A stretch of DNA of 64,000 nt, from the NCBI GenBank assembly GCA_029785825.1, contig JAFLYY010000001.1, positions 310,001-374,000 of the forward strand, in the 5' to 3' direction. The notes beneath the pieces are model-generated. The model ran no database searches. It was not told the origin of the DNA and worked only from the letters and a program-made list of their open reading frames with translations. Shown here in pieces: positions 31,573 to 35,272 of the stretch. Source of the DNA: Nitrososphaerota archaeon (lineage in GTDB: Archaea; Thermoproteota; Nitrososphaeria; Nitrososphaerales; Gagatemarchaeaceae). How positions within the stretch are numbered: the first letter of the stretch is position 1; every line of letters begins with the position of its first letter. Both the position numbers and the translations under genes were made by a program.

Positions 31573-31619
31573 GTCTTCTCTGCTCCCCCTTTTGCATATA
31601 ACCGATGCTCACAAGTTGT

Positions 31620-31883
31620 TCATCGTTTCTCATAGAAGAGCAATTTCAGGGCCGAGTCCAGGTGGGACAGAGCCTCCATCCCTCTGGTGGTGATAGAATA
31701 CGCTTCATGTCCGTCGAACGGTTCGGCTCTGACCAGCCCACCTGCGGCGAGCAGCCCCATGTAATCCGAAAGCCTGTCGTAGGGGATGTTCGCGACCCGT
31801 GCCAGCCTGGAGGGGATCTGCGGGCCTGAAGCCAGGGCCCGGAGGAGCTCCCAGCATATCACGGTCGTGTCCCTGTTCTTCAA
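31620..31883 (-). CDS. Small winged-helix transcriptional regulator
   Basis: 87 residues from TTG 31883, a single winged helix: TVICWELLRALASGPQIPSR, LARVANIPYDRLSDYMGLLA (recognition helix) and the wing HEAYSITTRGMEALSHL. It resembles the archaeal HTH_45-type family. It is divergent from the three-gene RecA-like operon at 32002, and an array of inverted repeats (31920-31964) lies between them, so it probably controls that operon and itself. No upstream ATG or GTG exists in frame before the preceding stop. Confidence 0.82.
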   Translation of the reverse strand: MKNRDTTVICWELLRALASGPQIPSRLARVANIPYDRLSDYMGLLAAGGLVRAEPFDGHEAYSITTRGMEALSHLDSALKLLFYEKR

Positions 31884-31919
31884 CGGCCCACTCGAGAGAA
31901 GAGGGGCGATATGAACGAA

Positions 31920-31964
31920 TTGTGCTCACGAATCGAGAGCACAACTTGAGAGCACAAGTTGTGC
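31920..31964. promoter_or_regulatory. Operator array (nested inverted and direct repeats)
   Basis: TTGTGCTC (31920-31927) and GAGCACAA (31937-31944) are perfect 8-base arms. GCACAACTT (31939-31947) and AAGTTGTGC (31956-31964) are perfect 9-base arms. The 13-base unit GAGAGCACAA(C/G)TT is also directly repeated at 31935 and 31948. Three or four half-sites related to GAGCACAA thus sit just upstream of the likely TATA of the plus-strand operon (CTTAAG, 31973-31978). The wHTH regulator encoded alongside is the obvious candidate binder. Confidence 0.7.
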
Positions 31965-32001
31965 GTCAGTGACTTAAGCCAAAGGCACGCTCTTGGGGCC
32001 A

Positions 32002-33225
32002 ATGAACGAGATCTCCGGTTGGCTAGGCTATTCACTGGACAGGTCGAGGGGAAGGGTCGGTGTGAGGGGGCTCGGCGACAGGGTCCTTCTCCTCGGAAGG
32101 CAGGCCGGCAGCCTCGCGTCACTCTACTCATATTCAGCAGCGGAAGCTGGGATGAAGGTGGCCGTCCTCGACGTCGACGGCTCGGTCTCCCCTGATGTCC
32201 GTGGGTACTATGACACTTACGACTACAGCTCGATGCTTTACGAGGCGTTCCGCCTGGAGGGGGACGACGCCGTACACGGACAGCTCGTGGCGGGCGCCTA
32301 CGCGGCCGCCCTCGACCTCACCTCAGAGGAGGAGGCGATCCTTTCGGCAGCCCTGCAGAAGCTCTCGGCGCAGAACGACCTGGCCACGCCCGCTTCGCTC
32401 TACGACGCCCTCGGAGGGGTGGAGGGATTCAGGGGGTTCTACGTAGACAAGCTGAGGGGGAGGATCGGGGCGCTGAAGCTCCTCGACGCCACCAGGGCGG
32501 AGCCCTTCGACAGGCTGACTTCGGAAGGCGCCCTGGTCGACTTCTCTTCCGCTCCCTATCCGCAGGCGGCCGAGCTTGCGGCCTGCTTGTTCGTCGCGAA
32601 GGCCCTCTACACGGCCACTTCTTCGGCCGCCCGCCCTGACGCGCTCCTCGTCACGGGGGTTCACCGGCTCTTCAGGAACCTGACCCGGTTCCAGCACTCG
32701 GGGAAGCTGATGTCGCATCTCCTCGAGTTCCCCGCTTCCCTGGTCCTGGCCACGCCAATACCCGCTCTCATGAACGACCGCCTCCTCGAATCCATGCCTG
32801 TCCGGGTCTATTCAAGCGAGGCGTGGAACGCGAAGAGGACCTTGAGGCAGGCGGCTGCCCTGGCGTGCTCCTTCATGGTCTGTGACGACAGGTCGGGAGT
32901 GTCATCGGGGTTCTTCCCCCGCTTTGTCAGGCCAAAGCGCCCCGCCGGGGCCCCGGCCAGACCAGGGACTCCTGCCATGGTGAACTCAGAGCTGACGAGG
33001 ACCATACTCGAGGAGGTCGTGAAGTTCGACACGGCCAGCAGGCAGTCGGTAGTGACGTACCTCTCTGCCACGTTCCTCGCGTCAGACGTGGAGGGAGAGC
33101 TCGACCGGCTCCACTCGGGAGGGTTCCTGGTCCTGGAACCCAAGGAAAACGGGTCCGGTCCGAAGATATTGGCCTACACAGTGACCGAAGCCGGAAGGCG
33201 CCTCCTCAGGGGGACGGCGGAGTGA
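32002..33225 (+). CDS. Degenerate P-loop (HerA/VirB4-like) protein with C-terminal wHTH
   Basis: 407 residues from ATG 32002, which lies 26 bases after the TATA-like CTTAAG. Not assigned to a named family. A P-loop-type fold is suggested by RVLLLGRQAGSLASLYSYSA (residues 27-46) and MKVAVLDVDGS (51-61), but the loop lacks the GKS/T of Walker A. The later LLVTGVHRLFRNL strand (216-227) resembles a Walker B lacking its acidic residue, and ASLVLATPIPALMNDRLLE resembles the sensor strand of HerA/VirB4 proteins. Residues about 330-405 form a winged helix. It is probably a catalytically dead structural or DNA-binding subunit. Its stop overlaps the start of the RecA-like gene. Confidence 0.72.
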   Translation: MNEISGWLGYSLDRSRGRVGVRGLGDRVLLLGRQAGSLASLYSYSAAEAGMKVAVLDVDGSVSPDVRGYYDTYDYSSMLYEAFRLEGDDAVHGQLVAGAYAAALDLTSEEEAILSAALQKLSAQNDLATPASLYDALGGVEGFRGFYVDKLRGRIGALKLLDATRAEPFDRLTSEGALVDFSSAPYPQAAELAACLFVAKALYTATSSAARPDALLVTGVHRLFRNLTRFQHSGKLMSHLLEFPASLVLATPIPALMNDRLLESMPVRVYSSEAWNAKRTLRQAAALACSFMVCDDRSGVSSGFFPRFVRPKRPAGAPARPGTPAMVNSELTRTILEEVVKFDTASRQSVVTYLSATFLASDVEGELDRLHSGGFLVLEPKENGSGPKILAYTVTEAGRRLLRGTAE

Positions 33226-34232
33226 TGGAGCACATCAAGACCGGATGCGCAGCCGTCGACGGGCTCACGGACGGGGGGCTGGCGACCGGGACCATCACCC
33301 AGATCTTCGGCGAGAAGGCCCTCGGAAAGAGCATAATCTCCTTCCAGGCCGCGTGCTCCGTCGCCGCCTCAGGAGGGAGCGCGGTGATACTCGACACCGA
33401 GCAGTCCTACTCCAGCTATCTCATCCCCTACTGGAAGGACAGGATGTCCAAGAGGTTCGGGAAGGAGTTCAACGTGGCAGAAGTCAAGCTCGAGAGGGCT
33501 CCAAAGGCCTCGCCGAAGAGAAAGCCTGTCACGCGCGGAGAGCTCATCAACGCCGTCGACGGCGCGCTGAGCCGTCTGGGGGTGTCGTACACGGACGCCC
33601 ACCTCAGCGCAGTGGCTGACATCTTCTCTCCCGATTTCAAGGTAGAGCTCCCCCAGAAGGGGCCATCGGTGCTTGTCTTTCAGACCCCCGAGGTGGTCGA
33701 CCTCCTGAACCTCCACGGCATCGACGCGGCCAAGGAGGTGTCCAGCGGCGGTAGGGTCGAGCTGAAGATGAGGCAGACACCGACATACCAGTCGGCCCTC
33801 CACCACATAGTCAGGGAGACCGGCGCCAGGCTCGTGATCTACGACTCCATTTCAGCCCCTTTCAAGTCTTCTTTCCCCAGCACCCAGGACCTCCCCGCCA
33901 GGAGCGCGGGCCTCGCCATGCTGCTTGCACACGCGCAGCGTCTCTGCATCGAGTTCGGCATAGCGGTCTTGGTGACCAGCCACGTCTCCATCGATCCCAT
34001 CAACCCATGGGACAGGACCCCCTACGGTGGGGTCATTCTCGGCCACGATGCGAAGTTCTCCCTTGAGCTCACGAAGTCGAGGGCGTCGCGGAACAAGGAC
34101 GGTAACCCCGTTGCCCTTAACTCCGACGAGAAGGACCTGTGCACCAAGGCGTTCTGGGCGGCGAGGCACCCGGCCCTGGAGGAGTACTCGAGGTTCGCCT
34201 ACGCCCGCCAGGATGACGAGGGGTTCCACTGA
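33222..34232 (+). CDS. RecA/RadB-like ATPase with large insertion
   Basis: 336 residues (GTG 33222 or ATG 33225, both inside the upstream stop). TGCAAVDGLTDGGLATGTIT leads to Walker A FGEKALGKSIISFQ (residues 29-42). Walker B is ARLVIYDSIS (202-211), and VLVTSHVSIDPI plus GGVILGHDAKFSLELTKSRA (about 269-288) match the L1/L2 region of RadA/RadB. Between about 80 and 190 an insertion rich in Lys/Arg and then hydrophobic residues replaces the short RadB linker. It is likely ATP-binding and active, in contrast to the preceding protein. Its stop overlaps the next start (TGATG). Not the main RadA, which has an N-terminal HhH domain missing here. Confidence 0.8.
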   Translation: MMEHIKTGCAAVDGLTDGGLATGTITQIFGEKALGKSIISFQAACSVAASGGSAVILDTEQSYSSYLIPYWKDRMSKRFGKEFNVAEVKLERAPKASPKRKPVTRGELINAVDGALSRLGVSYTDAHLSAVADIFSPDFKVELPQKGPSVLVFQTPEVVDLLNLHGIDAAKEVSSGGRVELKMRQTPTYQSALHHIVRETGARLVIYDSISAPFKSSFPSTQDLPARSAGLAMLLAHAQRLCIEFGIAVLVTSHVSIDPINPWDRTPYGGVILGHDAKFSLELTKSRASRNKDGNPVALNSDEKDLCTKAFWAARHPALEEYSRFAYARQDDEGFH

Positions 34233-35272
34233 TGGGATGGGGGCTGAGGATGCTCGCGGCCTTCGTCGGGCTCGTCGCCCTCGGGCTCGGGGCCTGGCCT
34301 GTCACCCTGCTGGCGGCGCTCTACCTCGTTTACTCCCTAAGGAGGCCAAGGACCAAAGCAGTGTTCGTCCAGGGACGAGGGGCCCTCCTGAAACCAGCGC
34401 GCCCCTTGGGGAGATACGCCGCCGCGGCACTCCTGTTCCTGCTCTCGCTGCTCGCCGCGGAAGACGGCGGAACCTATTCACCAGTGGTGTTCTTCGCGGC
34501 AGGGACGATGGTCGCCTTCTGGCCACTGGTGAGCCGGGCGGGGTTAGCCAGCGGGGTCGTTCCTGTCAGTGACTCAGTACTGCTACGGAGCAGACTCTTC
34601 CCGTTCTCATGGCACGCTCTGGCCGAGGTGAAGCTCGAATCTCAAGACCAGACGAGGGGGATCGTTTCGATGAGCGGGAGGGTCTTTCTCTTGGCGGGAA
34701 AGGCGCCCGCACTGTTCTTGATAATCAGCGTCCGCGCCACGAGCGCCAGGCAGGCGGAGGTCAGTGTCATCCGCAGGCTGAGGAGGGAGACAACGATGCT
34801 TTCCCAAAGGGGTGCCCATCTGCTGCCTGCTGACAGCTCTGACGCGGCAGAAAAGCTCTCCCTCGGCTTGGGACGACTGAACGTCGGGACCGAGGACTTC
34901 GACGCGGTTTCCTCCCTGCCTTTCGAAGCGATTGTGTTTCAGGTGCACGAGGGCCGGGTGGTCTCGCACAGGGCCTTCAACATCGCCGAGCAGGGCGGTT
35001 CTGCTTCAATCCCTGTCCCAGACCTGAAGTACTCTCGTCAGCCGCTCTTCGCCGAAGTGGTCCAAGGGATCGGCGAAAGGCACGGTTGGCCCGGACCCGA
35101 CGAGTTCTCGCCGTTCCTTGCCTCACTGGATGCGTCTCGCACCGAGCCTCTGGCGGACAGGCTCCAGGTGAAGGAAGAGGCGGCAGGGAAGGTTGCTGTG
35201 GAAACTCCAGGCGGAGCTGAGGTGCGCATTGCGAGGTCTCAGCTGAGAGCCCTGGCGGGAATCTATAGGTGA
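34232..35272 (+). CDS. Membrane protein of the RecA-like operon
   Basis: 346 residues, not recognised. About four transmembrane helices in two hairpins (residues 5-36 and 60-98) are followed by a basic turn and a 240-residue soluble domain with beta-rich and helical parts (ALAEVKLESQDQTRGIVSMS, FLIISVRATSARQAEVSVIR). The soluble part is probably cytoplasmic. It is translationally coupled to the RecA-like ATPase, so the two probably form a membrane-associated complex. No signal peptide or known catalytic motif is seen. Confidence 0.7.
   Translation: MGWGLRMLAAFVGLVALGLGAWPVTLLAALYLVYSLRRPRTKAVFVQGRGALLKPARPLGRYAAAALLFLLSLLAAEDGGTYSPVVFFAAGTMVAFWPLVSRAGLASGVVPVSDSVLLRSRLFPFSWHALAEVKLESQDQTRGIVSMSGRVFLLAGKAPALFLIISVRATSARQAEVSVIRRLRRETTMLSQRGAHLLPADSSDAAEKLSLGLGRLNVGTEDFDAVSSLPFEAIVFQVHEGRVVSHRAFNIAEQGGSASIPVPDLKYSRQPLFAEVVQGIGERHGWPGPDEFSPFLASLDASRTEPLADRLQVKEEAAGKVAVETPGGAEVRIARSQLRALAGIYR

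Follow-up and report, generated by a model that had tools for sequence, protein, structure and literature searches.

What do the three overlapping genes P1, P2 and P3 of an uncultured soil archaeon of the Nitrososphaerota do, and do they form one system under one control? They encode a P-loop-type protein, a RecA/RadB-like ATPase and a membrane protein. An initial annotation of the 64,000-nt stretch of DNA analysed here (the window; positions refer to it unless a contig or locus is given) knew of no named system with this composition. None was found in the literature searched, which was mostly non-subscription, or in the libraries used. The system is real, co-regulated and uncatalogued; the function that we infer for it is a different matter and is weighed below.

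The five-gene block and its proteins

Five genes in divergent arrangement make up the block in a 1.97-Mb archaeal genome (G000): The minus strand carries P5 and P4, the plus strand P1, P2 and P3. P1 (32002-33225) overlaps P2 (33222-34232) by 4 bp, and P2 overlaps P3 (34232-35272) by 1 bp, exactly as the three genes had been annotated. P1 starts with the ATG at 32002; an alternative TTG at 31993 is likewise in open frame. Regarding the flanks, the initial annotation recognized the divergent wHTH gene P4 (31620-31883, minus strand) but overlooked both P5 (31198-31572, minus strand) and a second operon with the same operator. An Rfam search of the window yielded no match.

P1 is confidently predicted to be a degenerate member of the FtsK-HerA/VirB4 superfamily. 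Its AF2 model from 26 homologues has a pLDDT of 86.8, and the best Foldseek matches of this model are HerA (9x1m, E 1.4e-7; 4d2i), VirB4 (4ag5/4ag6), TrwB and R388 VirB4, with prob 1.00 for HerA, VirB4 and TrwB. Sequence searches with P1 gave noise-level matches. Over the Walker A region, the P1 profile reaches HerA-like ATPases from two relatives (E 3-5e-4), and hhalign aligns the Walker B region weakly with the second-operon ATPase (E 3e-4, prob 41). Walker A itself (GxxxxGK[ST]) is absent from 26 of 26 homologues. P1 has GRQAGS in its place and TGVHRLF at the Walker B place, where most homologues read T-G-x-H-R-L-F and have lost the acid; some keep it (TEAHRLF, SEAHRLF). The C-terminal ~75 residues constitute a winged helix with weak PadR-like matches, and no TM helices are present. 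The earlier description of P1, a P-loop-type protein lacking Walker A and carrying a wHTH, holds and can now be narrowed to this superfamily. Weak matches to a Rossmann enzyme and a KH protein were overruled by the HerA/VirB4 fold result. Close paralogy of P1 and P2 was considered as well, and the profile comparison yielded nothing.

P2, judged by its sequence, is a RecA-family paralogue distinct from the RadA and RadB of its own genome. It passes Pfam Rad51 PF08423 with 68.9 bits (gathering score 22). Against RadB TIGR02237 (NCBIfam) it scores 63 bits, below the equivalog cut-off of 172.4, and against NCBIfam RadA 73.7 and 63 bits, below the cut-offs of 259 and 361. In addition, the genome encodes its own RadA (G000:C1:1216573-1218783, L180) and a RadB-like protein (G000:C1:1187007). 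Since both equivalog cut-offs failed and RadA and RadB are encoded separately, P2 is not an ordinary RadB, an identity that the initial annotation had left in play. All 20 homologues compared share the Walker A sequence GEKALGKS; the glutamate of DTE and a GG-x(4)-H segment, which looks like L2 of RadA, are invariant, too. The insertion after the DTE strand comprises ~120 residues (~66-184) instead of the ~110 first estimated and is kept in all homologues. P2 begins directly at the ATPase core and the RadA N-terminal region is missing, so that filament formation is not assured. A viral origin of P2 was dropped, as no relative was found in viral contigs. The RadA of the same genome is intein-split at Walker A: The Rad51 profile matches in two parts (1-41 and 39-244) ~1.5 kb apart, and the frame has 849 residues.

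P3 is a membrane protein, as had been supposed, with an N-terminal hydrophobic domain followed by a soluble domain. Four N-terminal helices are predicted, of which simple hydropathy supports two or three. By hhalign, the membrane domains of P3 and of the second-operon ATPase are homologues (prob 97.85, E 6.6e-13). The fold of the soluble domain had no match in PDB or viral model searches. Its equation with the NTD of the second-operon ATPase found no profile support, and therefore homology is claimed for the membrane domain only.

P4 is an 87-aa winged-helix regulator with a match to HTH_45. It is weakly Sso10a-like, and its own subfamily is single-copy in the genome. P5 (124 aa) contains two hydrophobic helices (~31-49 and ~67-85), is present in a single copy and accompanies P4. 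With the exception of P5 and the soluble domain of P3, each protein fits a known superfamily; the composition appears to be undescribed.

The shared operator and the second operon

Between the divergent genes P4 and P1 lies an operator array (31915-31966) of four tandem 13-bp units without gaps: ACGAATTGTGCTC / ACGAATCGAGAGC / ACAACTTGAGAGC / ACAAGTTGTGCGT. Over 25 loci, lag-13 identity amounts to 0.46 compared to 0.25 +/- 0.014 in shuffles, which bears out the dense array proposed earlier. As read from the sequence, the P1-P2-P3 promoter would use the TATA-like ACTTAAGC (31972-31979, plus strand) ~25 bp upstream of the ATG, and a TATA-like sequence adjoining the distal array end (31905-31913, minus strand) would belong to the P4 promoter. 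The P5 promoter (31597-31619, minus strand) comprises one operator unit, ACAACTTGTGAGC (31607-31619), and then the TATA-like TTATATGC.

The motif ACAASTTGTGMGYV has three exact matches in the 1.97-Mb genome, and these are located at P1, at P5 and at the ATPase gene of the second operon. A 31-bp part of the array (31940-31970) recurs exactly once in the genome, at G000:C1:7496-7526 before the second operon. Genus-wide, 25 of 26 exact motif matches are at P1, P5 or the second operon, compared to 2 matches of a reversed-pattern control. The sole stray match (G004:C25) lies within an epimerase gene and was taken as chance. Looser searches with 2-3 mismatches gave no gain over the reversed control, and two matches that were checked were inside genes.

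The operator sequence is strongly lineage-dependent (ACAACTTGTGAGC, TGACCTGAAGTCA, ACTTATCTTAGGTGAG and others), and the 13-bp geometry is constant. Within a genome, the P1 operator and the P5 operator match and covary (permutation p 5e-5, and 3e-4 when ten representatives are used); these p-values ignore shared ancestry, and five of the ten account for most of the signal. One co-evolving operator is common to the P1-P2-P3 operon, to P5 and, in genomes that have it, to the second operon. Which protein reads it? Where a second locus includes a P4 copy, its operator is a separate one that differs from the operator at the first locus of that genome, and a second P1 is lacking. This points to P4 and not to the wHTH of P1. 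Together with the covariation, it strongly supports P4 as the putative operator reader, and thus the small regulator of its own that the initial annotation had assigned to the operon.

The second operon encodes a HerA/VirB4-like ATPase (G000:C1:4731-7433, minus strand, 901 aa). It comprises a membrane domain at the N-terminus, an NTD and a motor whose Walker motifs, GMTGSGKTT and VEEAHRL, are intact. The PADLOC models HerA and mad8 match it. The gene 3' of the ATPase gene encodes a fast-evolving 689-aa protein with an acidic N-terminus and a PD-(D/E)XK-like C-terminus, which had no Pfam match and no name in the libraries used. By motif inspection, its E...GPD...ExK pattern ends in E-V-K, E-I-K or E-S-K in most homologues and in M-V-K in G000. 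A small gene 3' of the nuclease-like gene, also unnamed by these libraries, matches in type the C-terminal type of the nuclease-like protein.

The second operon occurs patchily, and many genomes with P1-P2-P3 lack it. On contig C88 of G023 and in G027, the ATPase and nuclease-like genes follow 3' of P3 in one operon with P1-P2-P3, and a P4-P5 copy of its own accompanies the second operon in G008, G011 and G029. In G029 (L167:3198-4283), an in-frame deletion has wholly removed the motor region of the ATPase and left the membrane domain and the C-terminus; the nuclease-like gene is retained. In G008 (L165:3-269, 650-1249), the nuclease-like gene and its cognate small gene are followed by another small gene, whose type is that accompanying the different nuclease-like protein of G000, an arrangement that resembles orphan immunity.

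Distribution and conservation

Within one Nitrososphaerales family, 39 of the 46 genomes have P1; among the 204 genomes from the rest of the order, none does. These scans used short peptide patterns, so distant relatives may have escaped them. One relative, palsa_1368, has been placed in Gagatemarchaeaceae, the family of group I.1c (PMC10640624), and the family of the window is therefore probably Gagatemarchaeaceae. P2 was found in 35 places in one-per-species genomes, all of them Nitrososphaerota/Thaumarchaeota metagenome bins of this group.

The three genes stay together in relatives, as a system of the kind first supposed would have them. Among 31 loci examined, every contig that extends beyond P1 has P2 directly 3' of it. 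In all of these but one, P3 comes next; in the exception, ~700 bp separate P2 and P3. P4-P5 are the divergent neighbours and in six loci a few kilobases off. All five genes are under purifying selection between G000 and one relative, with dN/dS from 0.06 (P2) to 0.22 (P3). The block is missing from two genus members with completeness of at least 90%, and one copy in a multi-copy bin (L049) is a pseudogene.

Several variations were observed around P3. Compared to G009 and G013 (L034/L033), DNA identity falls at the P2/P3 junction from ~0.9 to ~0.64 (34250-35272), and likewise sharply at the distal P5 end. From this drop, the P3 allele looks as if exchanged by recombination. Several relatives have an extra ~135-aa gene overlapping the P3 end and, convergent to it, a stand-alone ~390-aa HerA-like ATPase gene (L042:10557-12243, L044:3801-5325, L038). 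Two others carry a 613-615-aa helicase-like gene (Helicase_C) directly 3' of P3 on the same strand (L040:8193-10034, L043:10233-12080).

A possible machine and its competitors

What could the system do? The initial annotation considered a membrane machine that handles DNA. This idea has become much more likely with the co-regulated HerA/VirB4-like ATPase, which is membrane-anchored; the machine is still one that we infer. Tentatively, and at something short of an even chance, the locus is read as a dedicated membrane-anchored DNA-handling machine of FtsK-HerA/VirB4 plus RecA type with its own regulator, whose likeliest purpose would be DNA movement and recombination. In the proposed mechanism, P4 would bind beside the BRE/TATA elements and switch the regulon on or off. 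P3 would hold the complex at the membrane. P1 might bind DNA as a ring or adaptor that does not hydrolyse ATP, with its wHTH in an FtsK-gamma-like layout, and P2 might spend ATP on loading on or remodelling DNA. In genomes with the second operon, the HerA/VirB4-like motor could pump DNA and the nuclease-like partner trim it. Many genomes with P1-P2-P3 lack the motor operon, so the core needs a function without motor or borrows another HerA.

Such a purpose, with DNA movement at or across the membrane tied to recombination, would be functionally like that of the crenarchaeal Ced/Ted systems (CedA, CedA1, CedA2, CedB, CedD, CedE; TedA, TedB, TedC). Shared with these are a membrane HerA/VirB4-like ATPase of CedD-like layout, a small two-TM protein and associated recombination genes (PMC9905601, PMC11868833). 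CedD has the layout TM, NTD and HerA/VirB4 ATPase as in the second-operon ATPase (PMC11868833), and Ted loci include HerA and Rad50 genes (PMC9905601). This Ced/Ted trait, an ATPase with membrane segment, is present in the second operon and absent from many relatives. In contrast to Ced/Ted, the block comes from a different phylum branch and has no recognized CedA/VirB6 channel (6-7 TM), pilin or relaxase; P3 combines roughly four helices with its soluble domain. It adds a degenerate HerA-fold wHTH protein, a RecA-family paralogue and a dedicated wHTH regulator. The end-resection complex HerA-NurA resembles the system in the HerA fold of P1 and in the pairing of a HerA-like ATPase with a nuclease-like protein. 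However, P1 lacks Walker A, the system is membrane-anchored, and the genomes have a separate HerA-like ATPase; a NurA-like gene was not noticed when the block neighbourhoods were inspected. P2 shares with RadA/RadB the RecA-family core, Walker A, the DTE glutamate and the L2-like segment, but differs in its sub-cut-off scores, its insertion and the missing RadA N-terminal region. The second-operon ATPase is similar to VirB4 and to thaumarchaeal ICE ATPases in membrane domain, NTD and intact Walker motifs, but lies outside a recognizable conjugative element, and its partners are a PD-(D/E)XK-like protein and the P4/P5 cassette. A more specific reading, a new archaeal membrane DNA-translocation system with a dead HerA/VirB4-type ring with wHTH, a new RecA-family ATPase, a dedicated wHTH/membrane cassette and a lineage-rewritten operator, is possible but more doubtful than the general one.

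The main rival to DNA exchange is anti-invader defence, which we consider unlikely. Here, membrane motor, nuclease-like partner and a RecA-like sensor would attack or exclude foreign DNA, and P4/P5 would keep the system switched off until it is needed. Defence systems often pair HerA-type ATPases with nuclease-like partners, and the PADLOC matches of the second-operon ATPase, the fast evolution of the nuclease-like protein, whose C-terminal type is paired with a distinct small 3' gene, the patchiness of the second operon and the motor deletion in one relative are consistent with it. However, P1, P2 and P3 match no PADLOC model (E 0.1), and P2, with its low dN/dS, is under strong purifying selection and has no relatives found in viral contigs. 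Moreover, the core is near-universal in the family and occupies similar chromosomal places that are not island-like.

A housekeeping role in segregation, cell division or repair is less probable still. The complex would then be a pseudo-FtsK that is tethered to the membrane, has a DNA-reading wHTH and works with a RecA paralogue on the chromosome of the cell itself. FtsK has an alpha-beta-gamma layout, and P1 recalls it, as it recalls SpoIIIE, by a motor-fold core followed by a C-terminal wHTH and by a membrane partner; single copy, nearly family-wide occurrence and the strong conservation of P2 would suit such a role. Against it, P1 has neither an ATP site nor TM helices and its partner is of the RecA family, the block is missing outside the family and from the two near-complete genus genomes, the L049 copy is a pseudogene, and local dedicated regulation would be unusual.

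We give little credence to a domesticated remnant of an integrative-conjugative element that lost DNA transfer. Thaumarchaeal ICEs encode VirB4/TraG-type ATPases (PMC6563490) and P1 is degenerate, but integrase, TFIIB, VirB6, VirB3 and pilin genes were not recognized in the block, and vertical conservation, an intact P2 and purifying selection on all genes speak against it. Least probable is effector secretion, with the second-operon ATPase exporting the nuclease-like protein, the small gene as immunity gene and P1-P2-P3 as apparatus: The conserved acidic N-terminus, the variable C-terminus, the type-specific small 3' gene and the extra small gene of another type in one genome would fit, but the C-terminal domains look like divergent forms of one fold rather than swapped unrelated domains, and a RecA-family ATPase and a DNA-binding wHTH would have no role there.

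In soil Thaumarchaeota of group I.1c type, DNA exchange, recombination and defence are almost unstudied. If the reading as a DNA-handling machine is right, a family-wide machine would bring together, at the membrane, a pseudo-HerA ring and a third paralogue of the RecA family, and DNA movement in these archaea would become directly testable. Paralogous P4 regulators with different operators occur in one genome, and operators change together at two or three promoters. These P4/operator variants are a natural series for the co-evolution of transcription factor and site, which is useful in itself.
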